Made by a program: the position numbers and the translations under genes. Positions 5,958 through 29,801 of a stretch of DNA of 38,364 nucleotides are shown here, in pieces. The number at the start of each line of letters is the position of its first letter. Within the stretch, counting starts at the first letter, position 1. The notes beneath the pieces are model-generated. The model did no database searches. It had not been told where the DNA came from and worked only from the letters and a program-made list of their open reading frames with translations. This DNA is from Acidobacteriota bacterium (GTDB taxonomy: Bacteria > Acidobacteriota > JAAYUB01), in contig JAAYUB010000144.1 of the NCBI GenBank assembly GCA_012517875.1, forward strand, positions 1 through 38,364, given 5' to 3'.

Positions 5958-7745
5958 ATGTACAAGGGCTACATGAACCGCTTTCTCGAGGTTGACTTGA
6001 CCCATCGCACGTTCCGTTTCGGCCAGCCCGATCCGTCGCTCTTCGCCGGCTGGATCGGCGGCAAGGGCGTCGGTCTGAAACTCATGGTGGACCGGGGGCT
6101 CGTCACTCATGACCCGTTCGCCCCGGACAATCCGCTCATCTTCATGACCGGGCCGTTCACCGGCACCCAGGTCCAGACGTCGGCCCGTTCGGTGGTCTGC
6201 ACCAAGTCGCCGCTCACCGGCACGTTCCTCGACACCCACGCCGGCGGCCACTTCGGACCGGCGCTCAAGAAGGCCGGCCTTGACTGGATCTGGATCACCG
6301 GCGAGAGCGACCGGCCGGTCTACCTCCATGTGCGCCCCGGCGAGGTCCGCTTCGAGGATGCCGCCCACCTCTGGGGCAAAGGGATATTCGAGACGGAGAA
6401 GGCGCTCCGCGAAGCGTACCCCAAGGCCCGCGTGGCCCTGATCGGTCCGGCCGGCGAGAACCGCGTCCGCTTCGCCTGCATCGGCACCGAGCTGTACCGC
6501 CAGTACGGCCGCGGCGGCGCCGGCGCGGTCATGGGCGCCAAGAATCTCAAGGCGCTCGTCGTGGAGGGCGACGAGAAAATCGCCTACCACGACCCCGCCG
6601 GCTTCCAAGAGCTGAACCGGCAGCTCACCAAAGACATCGTCGCCCACCCCAACCGGCAGCGCCGCGACGACCTCGGCACCATGATGTGGATCCGCATGGG
6701 CCAGGAACAGGGGCACTTCCTCCCCACTCACAACTGGCGCGACACCCAGTTCGCCGGTTACGAGGGAATCACCTCCGAGGCATGCCGCGAGAAACTGGCC
6801 TGGAAGAGCACCGGCTGCTTCAACTGCGCCATCCGCTGCTCCAAGGAGGCGCGCTGGGGAAATTATGAGGTGGAGGGCCCCGAGTACGAGACCACCGCCT
6901 TTCTCGGTTCCGGCTGCGACATCGATTCGGCCGAGGCGGTGGCCTATGCCAACTGGCTGTGCGACGACCTGGGGCTCGACACCATCTCGGCAGGCGTGGT
7001 CTGCTCCTTCGCCATGGAGGCGTTCGAGCGGGGCATCATCAGCGCGGCGGACACTGGGGGCGTTGCGCTCCATTTCGGCAGCGCCGAGGCCCAGGCCGCC
7101 CTGCTCCGCCAGATCGCCCACCGTGAGAAGATCGGCGACCTGCTCGCCGAAGGCACCCGCATCGCCGCCCGGCGCATCGGCAAGGGGAGCGACTACTTCG
7201 CCATCCAGATCGCCGGCATGGAGCTGTCGGGGGTGAACATCAAAGGATGCGCCTCCATGGGCCTGACCCTGGCCACGTCCGATTTCGCCTCCCACACCCG
7301 GTTCTGGTCCGCCTCGGCGGAGATGCGGAAAGAGCTGACCTGGGAGAGCACGCCCGATTTCGTGCGCATCGGCCAGGATGTCGTGAACACCCGGAACTGC
7401 CTCATCGTCTGCGATTTCGTGATGTACGACCTCGACCGGCTGGCGCCGGTGTTCGAGAAGTGCACCGGCATCCCCATGAGCGAGACGGACATGAACCGGC
7501 TCGGCAACAAGATCTCCAACCTGACCCGCCTCTACAACATCGCCAACGGCCGCACCCGCGCCGACGACACCCTGCCGCCGCGCTTCTTCCAGGAGCCCCA
7601 CGAGGCGGGGCTCTTCGAGGGGCGGCGCCTCACCCGGGAGAAGTTCGCCGAATGGCTGGACATGTACTACGCTTCGCGCGGCTGGGACGCCGCCGGCGCC
7701 CCCACACCGGCCACGCTCACCGAGCTGGGACTGAACCCGATCTGA
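5958..7745 (+). CDS. aor: Aldehyde:ferredoxin oxidoreductase family protein (tungsten enzyme)
   Basis: A 595-residue AOR-family enzyme, near the usual 605. These enzymes use a tungsten-bispyranopterin and one [4Fe-4S] cluster to convert aldehydes and acids with ferredoxin as electron carrier. Visible markers are GGKGVGLKLM (34-43), KSPLTGTFLDTHAGGHFG (83-100), LIGPAGENRVRFACI (161-175) and RGGAGAVMGAKNLKAL (185-200) in the N-terminal pterin-binding domain. Cluster ligands are C287-x2-C290-x3-C294 and, by position, C485 in NTRNCLIVCDF. The last element stands where typical enzymes have DxxGLC, so the usual Asp and Gly are replaced; this could alter pterin contacts or substrate choice. It starts 28 bp after homoserine dehydrogenase, behind AGGAGG, and ends at a terminator. 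No molybdopterin or ferredoxin genes are near. Substrate unknown. Confidence 0.9.
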   Translation: MYKGYMNRFLEVDLTHRTFRFGQPDPSLFAGWIGGKGVGLKLMVDRGLVTHDPFAPDNPLIFMTGPFTGTQVQTSARSVVCTKSPLTGTFLDTHAGGHFGPALKKAGLDWIWITGESDRPVYLHVRPGEVRFEDAAHLWGKGIFETEKALREAYPKARVALIGPAGENRVRFACIGTELYRQYGRGGAGAVMGAKNLKALVVEGDEKIAYHDPAGFQELNRQLTKDIVAHPNRQRRDDLGTMMWIRMGQEQGHFLPTHNWRDTQFAGYEGITSEACREKLAWKSTGCFNCAIRCSKEARWGNYEVEGPEYETTAFLGSGCDIDSAEAVAYANWLCDDLGLDTISAGVVCSFAMEAFERGIISAADTGGVALHFGSAEAQAALLRQIAHREKIGDLLAEGTRIAARRIGKGSDYFAIQIAGMELSGVNIKGCASMGLTLATSDFASHTRFWSASAEMRKELTWESTPDFVRIGQDVVNTRNCLIVCDFVMYDLDRLAPVFEKCTGIPMSETDMNRLGNKISNLTRLYNIANGRTRADDTLPPRFFQEPHEAGLFEGRRLTREKFAEWLDMYYASRGWDAAGAPTPATLTELGLNPI

Positions 7746-14051: not shown

Positions 14052-16274
14052 TCAGTGCAGGATCGTCTCCAGGCTGGTGGACCAGATGTCGCGCAGACTG
14101 ATGACGTCGTCGATCACCAAGGTGTGTCCGTTGAGGTGGATGGCGAACACGTCGCGGGACACCCGGCCGACGAGAGCGCACGGCACGGACCAGCTCGCGG
14201 CGATGGCCGCAATCCGGTCGACGTGCGCGTCGGGCGCCGACACCACGGTTCGGCTCTGCGACTCGCCGAACAGGATGGCGTCTTCGCGCAGGTCCTGCGC
14301 CAGGGTGACCTCCACCGCCATTGTCGGATCGGGGCTGGCGAAGCAGCAATCGGCCAGAGCCATGGCCAGCCCGCCCTCGGACACGTCGTGGCAGGAGGCG
14401 AGCAGCCCCGCTCCGATCATCTCCCGCACGGCGCCCTGGAGGTTAGCCTCACACCGGAGGTCCAGCTGCGGAATGGGCCCCTGCTTCAAGCCATGCACCA
14501 GTTCCAGATACTCGGTTCCGCCCAGTTCCTCCAGCGTCTCGCCCAGGAGGAGCACCGCATGGCCGGGCTCCTTGAAGGCGATGTCCATCCGCCGGTCGAC
14601 ATCGTCGATGACGCCCAGCATCCCGATGACCGGGGTCGGCATGATCTGCTTGCCCAGTGTCTCATTGTAGAAGCTGACGTTGCCGCCGGTGATGGGCGTC
14701 CCGAACGCGGCGCACGCCTCGGCGATGCCGTCGATGACCTCGGAGAACGTCCACATCACCTCGGGATCCTCGGGCGACGGGAAATTCAGGCAGTTGGTCG
14801 CCGCCAGCGGCCGGGCGCCGGCGCACACCAGGTTGCGGCAGGCCTCGGCCACGGCGATCATGGCGCCGCGGCGGGGATTCAGCCAGGTGTAGCGGCCGTT
14901 GCCGTCGGTGGTGATGGCCAGCGCCGCCCGGCGACCCTTGAGCCGCAGCACAGCGGCGTCCGCGCCGGGCAACAGGGCGGTGTTGGTCCGGACCATATGA
15001 TCGTACTGCCGGTAGATCCAGCGGCGGCTGCACAGGTTGGCCGCCGCCAGCATGTCCTTGAAGGCACGGAACAGCCCGCCCGGCAGGGCCAGGCGGTCCA
15101 GGTCCAGGACATTCACCTTGTCCAGGTAGGCCGGGCGGCGCAGCGGGCGCTCGTAGACGGGCGCGTCGTCGGTCAGGGCGGTGTTGGGGATCCGGGCCAC
15201 CACCCGCCCGCCCTGCTCCACGTGCATGACGCCGTCGGCGATCACCTCGCCGATGACCGCCGCCTCCAGGTCCCACTTGCGGAAGATCTCCAGGATCTCG
15301 CCTTCGCGGCCCGCCGCCACGGTCATGAGCATCCGCTCCTGCGACTCGCTGAGCATGATCTCGTAGGGAGTCATCCCCTCCTCGCGCTGCGGCACGCGGT
15401 CGAGCTCGATGCGCACACCCACGCCCCCGCGCGCCCCCATCTCGCAGGTGGAACAGGTCAGGCCGGCGGCGCCCATGTCCTGGATGCCCAGCACGGCGCC
15501 GGTCTTGAACGCCTCGAGGCACGCCTCGAGGAGCAGCTTCTCCTGGAACGGGTCGCCCACCTGCACGGTGGGCCGCCGCTCCTGCGAGGTCTCGTCGAAC
15601 TCGGCCGAGGCCATCGTGGCGCCATGGATGCCGTCGCGGCCGGTCCGGGCGCCCACGTAGATGACCGGGTTGCCCACGCCGCTGGCCTTGCCGTAGAAAA
15701 TCTGATCGCGACGGGCGACACCGAGGCACAGCACGTTGACCAGGGGGTTCAGGCTGTAGGAGTCGTCGAAGTAGACTTCGCCGCCCACAGTGGGAATGCC
15801 GATGCAGTTGCCGTAGCCGGCGATCCCGGCCACCACGCCGTCGAGCAGGAAGCGGTTTTTGGCGTCCAGGAGCGGCCCGAACCGGAGCGAGTCGAGGCAG
15901 GCGATGGGCCGGGCGCCCATGGTGAAAATGTCCCGGATGATGCCGCCCACGCCGGTGGCGGCGCCCTGGTACGGCTCAATGAACGAGGGGTGGTTGTGCG
16001 ACTCGATCTTGAACACGGCCGCCTCGCCCTCGCCGATGTCCACCACGCCGGCGTTCTCGCCGGGCCCCTGGATCACGCACGGCCCGCGGGTGGGCAGGCG
16101 GCGCAGGTGCACCCGCGAGCTCTTGTAGCTGCAGTGCTCCGACCACATGACCGAAAAGATGCCGAGTTCGGTCAGAGTGGGCGTGCGCCCCAGCGTGGCC
16201 ACGATGCGCTCGTACTCCGCGGCGGTGAGGTTGTGCTCCTCGACCAGGGCGGGGGTGATGGGTTGTTCTTCCAT
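14052..16274 (-). CDS. purL: Phosphoribosylformylglycinamidine synthase subunit PurL (small type)
   Basis: A 740-residue PurL, the small form that works with PurS and PurQ to make FGAM from FGAR, ATP and glutamine-derived ammonia. Markers are [16 protein letters not shown] with the catalytic His near the N-terminus, [19 protein letters not shown]-type ATP loop, [12 protein letters not shown] and a second AIRS-like half from about residue 400. ATG 16274 ([14 protein letters not shown]) is preceded by AGGAAG at a 7 nt gap; an in-frame ATG 54 nt further up would add residues without family match. It lies 50 bp after purQ. Confidence 0.95.
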
Positions 16275-16324: not shown

Positions 16325-17023
16325 TCACCGCGCCCCGGCATGGGCCGCCAGCAGGGACTGGAAAATCTTGAGGCCGTCGGCCGAGCCGAGCATCGCCTCG
16401 GCCGCCCGCTCCGGATGGGGCATCATCCCCAGCACGTTCCCCGCCCGGTTGCAGATGCCGGCGATGTGCTCCGCCGACCCGTTGGGGTTGGCGTCCGCGC
16501 GGAGGAGGCCCGCTTCAGTGCAGTAGCGGAAGACGATCTGGTCATGGGCCTTCAGCTCGGCCAGCGTCGCTGCGTCGGCGAAGTAGTTGCCGTCGTGGTG
16601 CGCCACCGGAATGCTGAGCACCTCGCCCGGCGCGCACAGGCCGGTGAAGGGGGTGCGGCGGGTCTCCACGCGCAAGTGCACGTGCCGGCAGACGAACTTG
16701 AGCTGCTCGTTCTTGAGCATCGCCCCGGGGAGCAGGCCCGCCTCCAGCAGGATCTGGAAGCCGTTGCAGATCCCGATCACCCGCCCGCCGTTGGCGGCGA
16801 ACCGGCCGACGCACTTCATGATGGGCGAGAAGCGGGCGATGGCGCCCGTGCGCAGGTAATCGCCGTAGGAAAAGCCGCCGGGCAGGATGACCACATCGCA
16901 CTCCTGCAGCGACTCGTCCTTGTGCCAGAGGAACACCGCCTCCTCACCCAGGACGTGCTTGGCCACGTGGTAGGCGTCGTGGTCGCAGTTGGAACCCGGG
17001 AAAACGACGATCCCGAATTTCAT
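16325..17023 (-). CDS. purQ: Phosphoribosylformylglycinamidine synthase glutaminase subunit PurQ
   Basis: A 232-residue class I glutamine amidotransferase supplying ammonia to PurL. It starts [16 protein letters not shown], has [12 protein letters not shown] (48-58), the nucleophile Cys86 in GICNGFQIL, and the His203-Glu205 pair in MPHPER. Its start overlaps the purS stop by 4 bp (17020-17023), which suggests coupled synthesis of the PurS-PurQ-PurL complex. Confidence 0.96.
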
Positions 17024-17268
17024 GCCCCCTCCAGCTCGAAGCGGAAGTCCTCGATGACCGTGTTGGTCAGAACGGTCCGGGCGATCTCCTCCACCACCTG
17101 GCGGGCCCGGTCCGCGGCGACGTCGTCGGGCAGAGCGAGCTCAAAGTACTTGCCCTGACGCACCTCCAGAACCTCCTTGAAGCCCAGGCTCTTGACCGCC
17201 CGCTGGACGGTCTTGCCCTGCGGATCGAGGACGTCCCGTTTCAAGGTCACATACACTTTTGCGCGCAT
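17020..17268 (-). CDS. purS: PurS subunit of FGAM synthase
   Basis: An 82-residue protein, typical PurS length, that bridges PurQ and PurL. Visible are [19 protein letters not shown] (3-21), QRAVKSLGF (22-30) and VRQGKYFEL (36-44). The ATG at 17268 matches the family start and has AGGTGG upstream; the open frame extends further up inside the dehydrogenase region but is not coding there. It heads purSQL. Confidence 0.94.
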
Positions 17269-17326: not shown

Positions 17327-18289
17327 TCAGCACACCGGATGCAGCGGCCGGCCGGTGTCGAAAAACGCGACCACGTTGTCCACGGCCATCTGCACGATGG
17401 CCCGCCGCGCCGTATCCGTGGCCGAACCGATATGGGGCAGCAGCACCACGTTGTCCAGCGCCAGGAGTCCGGGATGCACCGCCGGCTCCCCCTCGTACAC
17501 GTCCAGGCCGGCGGCGCGGAGCCGGCGGGCCCGCAGCGCGTCGGCCAGCGCCGCTTCGTCCACAACAGGGCCGCGGGCCGTGTTGATCAGGATCGCCCCC
17601 GGTTTCATCGCCGCCAGCGCCCGCGCGTCGATGAGGTGCCGCGTCGCCGGCTCCAGGGGGCAGTGCAGGCTGACCACGTCGGCTGCGCGGAGCAGCTCGT
17701 CCAGCGGCAGCCACCGCGCCTCGAGTGCGGCCTCCACCGCCGGATCGACGGCATTGCGGTTGTGGTACACGATCCGCATGCCGAATCCCCGCGCCCGGCG
17801 GGCCACCGCCTGGCCGATGCGGCCCAGGCCGACGATACCCAGAGTCGCGCCATTGAGCTCCAGGCCCAGCAGCAGTTCCAGGTCCCAACCGGCGAACCGG
17901 CCGGCGCGCACGTAGCGGTCGGCTTCCACCACCCGGCGGGCGGCCGCCAGCAGCAGGGCCAGCGCCAAGTCCGCCGTGGCCTCAGTCAGGGCCCCCGGCG
18001 TGTTGGTGACGGTGATGCCCCGCGCCCGGGCGTGCGCCCAGTCGATGTTGTTGAAGCCTACCCCAACGTTGGCGATGATCCGCAGGTCGGGGGCGGCTTC
18101 GATGAGCGCCGCGTCGATCGTGTCGCTGAGCAGGCACACCAGGCCGCGGCAGCCTGGCAGGGCCGCGGTCAGCGCGGCGCGGTCCGGCCAGGCGACGCCC
18201 GGCGGCCGGCGCAGCGTGAAGTGAGCCGGAAAACGCCGTTCGGCTCCGAACGGCAGCGGATGCGTCAACAGCACGGTCACGGGCGGCAT
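17327..18289 (-). CDS. D-2-hydroxyacid dehydrogenase, glyoxylate/hydroxypyruvate reductase type
   Basis: A 320-residue NAD(P)-dependent D-isomer-specific dehydrogenase. Markers are NVGVGFNNIDWAHARARGI (74-92), TNTPGALTEATADLAL (95-110), nucleotide-binding GLGRIG (154-159), and the catalytic set Arg239 (NTARGPVVDE), Glu268 (DVYEGEP) and His286 (LLPHIGSAT). The NVGVGxNNID / TVTNTPG wording is closest to glyoxylate or hydroxypyruvate reductases, not to SerA, and there is no ACT domain. It lies between a BMC vertex gene (96 bp upstream) and purS (58 bp downstream). A role in serine or glycolate metabolism is an inference. Confidence 0.85.
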   Translation of the reverse strand: MPPVTVLLTHPLPFGAERRFPAHFTLRRPPGVAWPDRAALTAALPGCRGLVCLLSDTIDAALIEAAPDLRIIANVGVGFNNIDWAHARARGITVTNTPGALTEATADLALALLLAAARRVVEADRYVRAGRFAGWDLELLLGLELNGATLGIVGLGRIGQAVARRARGFGMRIVYHNRNAVDPAVEAALEARWLPLDELLRAADVVSLHCPLEPATRHLIDARALAAMKPGAILINTARGPVVDEAALADALRARRLRAAGLDVYEGEPAVHPGLLALDNVVLLPHIGSATDTARRAIVQMAVDNVVAFFDTGRPLHPVC

Positions 18290-18385: not shown

Positions 18386-18703
18386 TCAGGGGGCCGGCGG
18401 GCCGGGCGGGCGCTGGGCCCCGCCGGCTGGCGAGAACCATTCGACGGCGTCCACCACGCCGATGACGGCGCGGTTGATGGGCCCCATCTCCCGACCGACG
18501 GCCTCCCAGGTCGAGCGGCCCTCCTCGAGGACCAGGACCAGGTCGCCGGCGCCGGCGTCGACGCTGTCCACCGCGATGAGCTTATCGCCGGCGGGCATTC
18601 CGCTCCGGGCATCCAGAGGCTGGACGTAGAGGAGCTTGAGCCCTTCGTATTGAAGGTGCTTGACGGTGGACTCGACGCTGCCGAGGACTCTCGCCAAAAT
18701 CAC
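18386..18703 (-). CDS. EutN/CcmL-family bacterial microcompartment vertex protein (BMC-P)
   Basis: A 105-residue member of the pentamer-forming EutN/CcmL family that caps the vertices of microcompartment shells. The pattern is MILARVLGSVESTVKH, then GLKLLYVQPLD, DSVDAGAGDLVLVLEEG (46-62) and RAVIGVVDAVEW, with a Pro/Gly-rich tail. The start is GTG at 18703, which fits the family N-terminus exactly. There is no Shine-Dalgarno sequence, and a TATAAT lies only 7 nt upstream, so the mRNA may be leaderless. It faces a second gene of the same family at 18795. No BMC-H or BMC-T shell gene and no encapsulated enzyme is visible in the window. Confidence 0.88.
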   Translation of the reverse strand: MILARVLGSVESTVKHLQYEGLKLLYVQPLDARSGMPAGDKLIAVDSVDAGAGDLVLVLEEGRSTWEAVGREMGPINRAVIGVVDAVEWFSPAGGAQRPPGPPAP

Positions 18704-18710
18704 AGTGGTT

Positions 18711-18716
18711 ATTATA
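18711..18716 (-). promoter_or_regulatory. -10 element directly before the BMC-P gene (minus strand)
   Basis: TATAAT on the minus strand, ending 7 nt before the GTG start. Transcription from it would begin at or next to the start codon. I do not see a good -35 (CTTTCC at the 17 bp position). Confidence 0.45.
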
Positions 18717-18794
18717 CCGCGTTTATGCTAAATGGAAAGCGCCGCCCGAACGGCCCGTCCCGCGGGCGGCAGCCCGAATCCGCGGAGGTCCGCC

Positions 18795-19076
18795 ATGCGC
18801 CTGGCTCGCACCATCGGCTGCGTCGTCGCCACCGTGAAAAACCCGTCCCTGACCGGGAAGCGGATCCTGCTGCTGCAGGAGGTGGACGAGGCGGACCGCC
18901 CGGTGGGAGAACCGTTCGCCGCCCTGGACGCGGTCGGTGTGGGCGCCGGCGAACGGGTCTTCTACGTCACCGCCCGGGAGGCCGCCCTGCCGTTCCTGCC
19001 CGAAGAGGTGCCCGCCGACGCCTGCGTGCTCGGCGTCGTCGATCGAGTGAATGTCAAGCCCGAGGTCCAAGGCTAG
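18795..19076 (+). CDS. Second EutN/CcmL-family BMC vertex protein
   Basis: A 93-residue BMC-P protein beginning MRLARTIGCVVATVKNPSL, followed by GKRILLLQEVD, DAVGVGAGERVFYVTARE (46-63) and ACVLGVVDRVNV (77-88). This is the full EutN/CcmL pattern. ATG 18795 has GGAGG at 18784-18788; the in-frame ATG at 18732 would add 21 residues with no family match. It is divergent from the other BMC-P gene, the two starts being 91 bp apart, and the two proteins differ a good deal in sequence, so this is not a recent local duplication. Confidence 0.87.
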   Translation: MRLARTIGCVVATVKNPSLTGKRILLLQEVDEADRPVGEPFAALDAVGVGAGERVFYVTAREAALPFLPEEVPADACVLGVVDRVNVKPEVQG

Positions 19077-28731: not shown

Positions 28732-29571
28732 ATGAACAATCGACTCCCGTGGCTCTTTTTGATACTGGGCGCCCTATGTTGGGGCTCGGTCCCCGCCCGG
28801 ACGGCGGACGGCAAATTGCGGGTGGTTGTGACCTACTCGGCCTACCACTCCATTGCAGAGTATATCGGCGGCGACAAGGTAGTCGTGTCACACATAGTGG
28901 AGGGCAATCAGGACCCTCACATCGTCCGCCCAAAGCCCAGTTTGGCCGTGATGCTCAAATCAGCAGACGTCTATGTGGCCACCGGTATGGATCTGGAAAT
29001 GTGGTCACCGGCCCTGGTGGATATGTCCGGCAATCCGAACATTCGCAGCGGTCAGAAAGGCTACGTTTCCGCCAGCGCCGGGTTGCGCCTGCTCGAGACA
29101 CCGGTCACGATCTCCCGGGCGGAAGGTGACGTGCACATCTACGGCAACCCCCACATCCACACCAGTCCGCTCAACGGGAAAACCATAGCCGAAAACATCT
29201 GCGTCGGTCTGAAGCGGAACGCGCCCGAACACGCTGAGTATTTCGACCAGAACCTCAAACGCTTCATCGAGGAAATCGACCGGCGGACGTTCGGCGACGA
29301 GTTGGTCCGGCTGCTGGGCGGCAGGGTGCTGACCGACCTGGCGCAAAAGGGCCAACTGTTTTCATTTCTTGAAAACAAGCAATACCACGGCCAGCCGTTG
29401 TCGGCTCGCCTCGGCGGCTGGATGAAGGCCGCCGAGCCGTTGCGCGGCTTGAAGATTGTCGCGTATCATAAAAACATCAGCTATTTCGCCGAACTGTTCA
29501 ACATCGAGATCGTCGATTACCTGGAGCCCAAGCCGGGCATCCCCCCACCCCGGGCCACATCACGACGGTGA
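28732..29571 (+). CDS. ZnuA-like metal-binding protein, N-terminal part (frameshifted gene)
   Basis: The first 279 residues of a cluster A-I (zinc/manganese) ABC substrate-binding protein. A signal peptide (1-24, no lipobox) is followed by KLRVVVTYSAYHSIAEYIGGD. Likely metal ligands are His63 (GNQDPHIVRP), His141 (YGNPHIHTSP) and His246 (AYHKNISYF). At PKPGIPP the frame departs from the family and stops ten codons later. Adding one base to the run of six C at 29541-29546 restores PGIPPTPGHITTVIDKM and joins it to the next frame. So this is one gene broken by a -1 shift, either a real mutation or a sequencing error. AGGAG at 28720-28724 precedes the ATG. Confidence 0.82.
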   Translation: MNNRLPWLFLILGALCWGSVPARTADGKLRVVVTYSAYHSIAEYIGGDKVVVSHIVEGNQDPHIVRPKPSLAVMLKSADVYVATGMDLEMWSPALVDMSGNPNIRSGQKGYVSASAGLRLLETPVTISRAEGDVHIYGNPHIHTSPLNGKTIAENICVGLKRNAPEHAEYFDQNLKRFIEEIDRRTFGDELVRLLGGRVLTDLAQKGQLFSFLENKQYHGQPLSARLGGWMKAAEPLRGLKIVAYHKNISYFAELFNIEIVDYLEPKPGIPPPRATSRR

Positions 29572-29801
29572 TCGACAAGATGCACAGTCAGCACATCCAC
29601 ATCCTGTGGGCCGAAAACTATTTCGACATCGCTCAGGTGAAAAAAGTCGCCGAACGAGTCGGCGCTAGGCCAGTGATCGTTGCCTTGGCGCCCGGCAGCC
29701 AGCCGGACATGCGAACATTTTTTGACATGTTCGACATCTGGATCCGCGAACTCAAAAACGCTGCGCTGGAAAACGGATCGCGCCATCCAGCCAGTTCCTG
29801 A
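29568..29801 (+). CDS. ZnuA-like metal-binding protein, C-terminal part
   Basis: Seventy-seven residues that complete the broken gene: KMHSQHIHILWAENYFD, then VAERVGARPVIVALAPG and DMFDIWIRELKNA, the usual end of the second lobe of ZnuA-type proteins; an acidic residue in WAENYFD would be the fourth metal ligand. A GTG at 29568 overlaps the upstream stop (GTGA), so independent translation by coupling is conceivable. A free C-terminal sub-lobe would not make a working binding protein unless the two halves associate. It ends 14 bp before the permease gene. Confidence 0.7.
   Translation: MIDKMHSQHIHILWAENYFDIAQVKKVAERVGARPVIVALAPGSQPDMRTFFDMFDIWIRELKNAALENGSRHPASS

Follow-up and report, generated by a model that had tools for sequence, protein, structure and literature searches.

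Why two genes for vertex proteins of a bacterial microcompartment (BMC) should stand side by side at a locus with no other shell gene is the question raised by a 38,364-nt stretch of Acidobacteriota DNA, which we refer to as the window. It corresponds to a complete contig (C144) from a metagenome-assembled genome (MAG) of 4.0 Mb in 182 contigs, which is 96% complete. We designate its two BMC-P (EutN/CcmL) vertex genes P2, on the minus strand, and P3, on the plus strand, while P1 denotes the third EutN gene of the same genome. We conclude that P2 and P3 are very probably the third- and second-type vertex genes, respectively, of a scattered catabolic microcompartment of the ACI (Acidobacteria) type, and that they became a satellite when an ACI-type locus underwent fission, being neither a remnant nor shown to act alone.

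Both genes are intact open reading frames (ORFs), and profile searches showed that each covers PF03319 nearly end to end, at scores (Table 1) above the 25-bit cut-off. Monomer models predicted the BMC-P subunit fold for P2 (mean pLDDT of 86.1) and P3 (85.5), with CcmL, GrpN, EutN and the Haliangium ochraceum shell as the best Foldseek matches among solved structures, such that both proteins combine a full-length domain with the predicted fold. For P3, alignment and coding score back the 93-aa form, while a 114-aa form would use an upstream ATG at 18732. The initial annotation had described two full-length, clearly different EutN/CcmL genes 91 bp apart, in agreement with the coordinates, the profile scores and an identity of ~33% between P2 and P3. 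It had also said that the genes face each other, whereas they are in fact divergently transcribed and point away from each other across a spacer of exactly 91 bp. As it had further stated, the 38 kb hold no BMC-H or BMC-T gene: a profile search of the window contig with PF00936 gave no match.

Shell genes were found elsewhere in the genome. The genome-wide PF00936 search that had been proposed as a check yielded one BMC-H gene (C173:17372-17599), with P1 next after it, and a single BMC-T gene with tandem domains (C21:89289-89798), both close to contig ends. Three relatives have BMC-H, P1, a PduS-like protein and BMC-T in a single row, and in the window's genome residues 1-398 of PduS end contig C173 while residues 406-457 lie at the end of C21. 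Since PduS is cut across these two contig ends, the H-P1-PduS-T locus is present and has merely been severed by the assembly. In profile matches, H scored above the cut-off as EutM-like, while T came out as PduT-like at a score below the equivalog cut-off. The electron-transfer protein matched as RnfC-like; we named it PduS-like on account of its location between shell genes. The suggestion that the window pair are satellites of a BMC locus elsewhere was therefore borne out, in that the genome has BMC-H, BMC-P, PduS and PduT-like genes, with the window pair as members 2 and 3 of a triplet. In other triplet-bearing Acidobacteriota (L157, L158 and L159), the PduS-like and PduT-like genes make up a satellite by themselves, next to a TolB-like gene, unlike in the window's family, where they are joined to H-P1.

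The assignment of the pair to positions within a triplet comes from comparison across an even set of 99 Acidobacteriota genomes, 52 of which carry PF03319 genes, mostly three per genome and often arranged H-P-P-P. In a tree of 27 acidobacterial H-P-P-P triplets together with the genes of the window's genome (92 columns), first-position proteins grouped with P1, second-position proteins with P3 and third-position proteins with P2, without exception. Each position group formed one side of a branch, with ultrafast bootstrap/SH-aLRT values of 100/95 (first), 100/99 (second) and 95/65 (third). Swapping the P2 and P3 labels failed in 200/200 bootstrap trees, and a wider tree of 203 rows was concordant with this grouping; branching within the groups was not resolved at 92 columns. 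The second- and third-type sequence signatures of the window pair are intact. Within the window's family (f1; genomes G000-G003, from two genera), each genome has BMC-P genes of all three positional types and one BMC-H, as characterize ACI systems, though the genes are dispersed. The same tree bears on the notion that the pair belongs to a second microcompartment, separate from the H-P1-PduS-PduT locus of the same cell. The loci are unlinked, and P2 lies beside a gene typical of ACI loci while the main locus has PduS-PduT, but P1 takes first position in the triplet set to which P2 and P3 belong, and other triplet genomes carry PduS-PduT as a satellite of its own, so we give this notion almost no credence. 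As a separate observation, genome G018 (L126 and L160) carries six EutN genes spread over two or more loci, one of which lies near a deoC-like gene; this suggests two microcompartments in that genome.

The genes downstream of P2 point to where the pair came from. The first is a D-2-hydroxyacid dehydrogenase (HADH), glyoxylate/hydroxypyruvate reductase-like, of the PF00389/PF02826 kind seen in ACI loci. Its best match was the triplet-adjacent copy in 7/7 searched genomes having one (271-306 bits), ahead of their own paralogs, and in a HADH tree the window gene, two genes of the sister family (f2; genomes G004 and G005) and three triplet-adjacent genes fell into one supported set (96/94). The order P2-HADH-purS-purQ-purL recurs in f2, where HADH begins directly after P2. 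The proposal that the dehydrogenase is linked to the pair thus holds: it is orthologous to the gene that adjoins triplets in other Acidobacteria, and a second family also has it next to P2. Other families show the orders H-P1-P3-P2-HADH and H-P1-P3-P2-purS-purQ; in two of them (G094 and G074) purS-purQ come immediately after the intact triplet, and the G094 row (L209:1285-6909, minus strand) reads aldolase-H-P1-P3-P2-purS-purQ, followed by a 788-codon ORF in the purL position. This recurring triplet/HADH/pur order marks the window as the end portion of an ancestral ACI-type cluster that has lost H-P1 and the aldolase to other sites and now has P3 in inverted orientation. Of the initial remark that no shell or cargo genes were in sight, the part on shell genes stands and the part on cargo does not, since the adjacent HADH is an ACI-locus gene. 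Linkage of microcompartment shell genes to purine synthesis genes recurs in four families; purS itself presumably has no BMC function.

Table 1. Coordinates of the vertex gene pair and its neighborhood in the window.
Feature	Position	Strand	Remarks
P2, third-position-type BMC-P (EutN/CcmL) vertex gene	18386..18703	-	GTG start, 105 aa; PF03319 70 bits
P3, second-position-type BMC-P (EutN/CcmL) vertex gene	18795..19076	+	ATG start, 93 aa; PF03319 75.5 bits
Divergent spacer	18704..18794		AT-rich core common to two genera; TATAAT box for P2
D-2-hydroxyacid dehydrogenase (HADH)	17327..18289	-	PF02826/PF00389; ortholog of ACI-triplet-adjacent gene
purS	17020..17268	-	Ancestral neighborhood
purQ	16325..17023	-	Ancestral neighborhood
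purL	14052..16274	-	Ancestral neighborhood

The ACI type, found exclusively in Acidobacteria, was described as pairing BMC-H with a BMC-P triplet; its enzymes are a class II aldolase that ends in a C-terminal encapsulation peptide, a PF00389/PF02826 HADH and, in a satellite, an aldehyde dehydrogenase (Sutter et al., 2021; PMC8217296). It is a small class, unnamed in the main text of that survey. The ACI aldehyde dehydrogenase falls in the ACI/MIC3 branch of the published tree of these enzymes. We found candidates for each enzyme. One class II aldolase (PF00596) is present in each of 5/6 genomes of the class, with none found in G002; these aldolases carry a linker (as in G000, G001 and G003) or short spacer followed by an amphipathic C-terminal tail, a putative encapsulation peptide. 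Both f1 and G005 have an acylating aldehyde dehydrogenase (TIGR02518 kind, EutE-like) that bears a tail helix; in the window's genome this TIGR02518-like, helix-tailed enzyme is unlinked to the shell loci. Hydrophobic moments of the tails lie in the top 0.4-2.5% of each protein, while HADH has no tail extension of that kind. The f1 acylating aldehyde dehydrogenases (L150:3637-5373, L152:8331-10079 and L154:2457-3905) also have ~50 extra residues after the tail helix, a segment that holds a TPLAR(D/E)LG motif and that the f2 enzyme does not have.

The system therefore resembles ACI in its triplet, BMC-H, tailed class II aldolase, PF00389/PF02826 HADH and a candidate aldehyde dehydrogenase at another place, but differs in that the triplet is split 1 + 2 with the second and third vertex genes divergent, and in that H-P1 is joined to pduS-pduT with the aldolase elsewhere. 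Rather than a single main locus with triplet, H, aldolase and HADH, the genes occupy at least three places, and because of this spread we call it a dispersed derivative of ACI, not a standard ACI locus. BMC-P triplets, and satellite loci arising from fission, have been described, including the type I HO satellite of two BMC-P and an aldolase in Haliangium ochraceum (PMC8217296). The window likewise has two BMC-P with one enzyme gene, explained by fission from a main locus; however, HO has BMC-Tdp facet proteins and a different aldolase, and its two BMC-P lie beside that aldolase rather than beside HADH. FRAG microcompartments (PMC8217296) share the dispersal of shell genes over several places and the BMC-P triplet; here, by contrast, an origin from an ACI-type locus with recognizable enzymes can be traced. 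As in satellite and satellite-like loci (Axen et al., 2014; PMC4207490), the shell genes of the window are exclusively PF03319, contiguous and accompanied by another BMC locus in the genome, but the adjacent BMC-related enzyme gene makes the locus, strictly, satellite-like.

Its distance from H and T and the clear break-up of the cluster might suggest that the pair is decaying after the loss or replacement of its microcompartment locus. The genes, however, are intact and full-length, and the divergent P2|P3 pair was found in 4/4 f1 genomes (in G001 it is divided between two contigs, with a P3 fragment adjoining P2). Pairwise dN/dS values (NG86) within the window's genus were 0.12-0.27 for P2 and 0.09-0.21 for P3, well below 1, with few changes underlying these values. 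The pair is conserved in both genera of f1 and under purifying selection. An AT-rich core of the spacer is kept in both genera while the remainder of the spacer has diverged; it includes a TATAAT box of P2 at 18716-18711, immediately ahead of the GTG start, such that the P2 transcript is probably leaderless or nearly so. On the grounds of conservation, dN/dS and promoter core, together with the intact type signatures, we rejected decay as very improbable. It had been envisaged for the case that a full BMC locus elsewhere had vertex genes of its own and the pair was not conserved; instead, the other locus has 1/3 of the vertex genes, and the pair is conserved, while the dehydrogenase, whose conservation had also been raised, is absent in G003.

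Several observations weigh against the ACI assignment. The GSSAR motif of P1 is absent from P2 and P3, but members 2 and 3 of intact triplets lack it as well. The tail helices are only moderately amphipathic compared with shuffles (p of 0.006-0.09), the helix test being weak alone. A search of all six genomes for PduL found none. In G003, HADH is not beside the pair, and no ortholog was found in that genome. That P2 and P3 enter a shell of H, T and P1 is a prediction. Finally, the two f2 genomes gave no PF00936 match even at E<=1 and no P1.

This last observation bears on whether P2 and P3 pentamers might have a role outside any shell, for example as a scaffold or in metabolite binding with HADH and the tagged enzymes, beside a shell in f1 and without one in f2. 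Both f2 genomes have P2-HADH-purSQL and a tailed aldolase, to which G005 adds P3 and a tailed aldehyde dehydrogenase; P2 is under selection between them (pairwise NG86 dN/dS of 0.135), and, as noted, HADH directly follows it. A PduS ortholog was not found in f2, with just an RnfC-like homolog (34% identity) in G005, and no BMC gene lies alongside the rhomboid flank in G005, though the locus may still lie elsewhere. Against such a role, the f2 enzymes retain encapsulation-peptide-like tails, which imply a shell, and the missing genes form a single locus in f1, so that one gap per MAG would explain their absence. G004 is 82% and G005 94% complete (their contigs have 34-36% GC); taken at face value, completeness gives such gaps a chance of ~1% (0.06 x 0.18), but gaps in MAGs are not random. 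Among the 52 EutN-bearing genomes sampled, only three have EutN without PF00936, namely G004, G005 and G050, the last being 79% complete and having siblings with shells. The window's own genome has shell genes, leaving the initial suggestion of a stand-alone role unsupported there. We thus consider a role of the pair outside any shell improbable, while for f2 in particular we regard as somewhat less doubtful, if still unlikely, a microcompartment-derived, shell-less assembly of HADH and tail-tagged enzymes organized by vertex proteins (third-type, plus second-type in one genome). Our search of the open literature for BMC-P without BMC-H returned nothing on point, which is no proof of absence.

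Returning to the scattered ACI-type microcompartment, the ancestral cluster would have run roughly aldolase-H-P1-P3-P2-HADH and continued into purS-purQ-purL. In f1 this cluster would have broken, leaving H and P1 with pduS-pduT, the aldolase elsewhere and P3 inverted beside P2, with P2 retaining its old downstream neighbors in the window's genus. Pentamers of P1, P2 and P3 would close the corners of a shell built from BMC-H hexamers and PduT-like trimers, and the class II aldolase and acylating aldehyde dehydrogenase, both tail-tagged, may lie inside it. Electrons could be carried across the shell by PduS/PduT, and HADH may recycle NAD(H) or handle a product. Sugar-phosphate-derived aldehydes are the likely substrate class, given the aldolase family and the published survey (PMC8217296). 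Separate divergent promoters might allow vertex supply to be set apart from facet supply, and since Pdu compartments become tubes when the vertex protein is lost (PMC9243111), a promoter of their own for vertex genes could matter for shape.

Elsewhere in the window, we observed a znuA-like zinc-uptake gene (28828-29801, plus strand; PF01297, profile positions 4-143 of 263) that stops mid-domain at 29571 and seems to resume in another frame at 29568-29801, which points to a frameshift, either genomic or introduced by the assembly. A complete aldehyde ferredoxin oxidoreductase gene (AFOR_N + AFOR_C; 5958-7745, plus strand) adjoins a homoserine dehydrogenase gene.

In this family, a microcompartment cluster is seen in the course of break-up, with selection still acting on its parts. 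The f2 case, if true, would hint that vertex proteins act without a shell. Across Acidobacteriota, three vertex paralogs gain fixed positional identities. A shell requires only 12 pentamers, and the question of why three types of vertex protein are needed in some microcompartments becomes directly testable.
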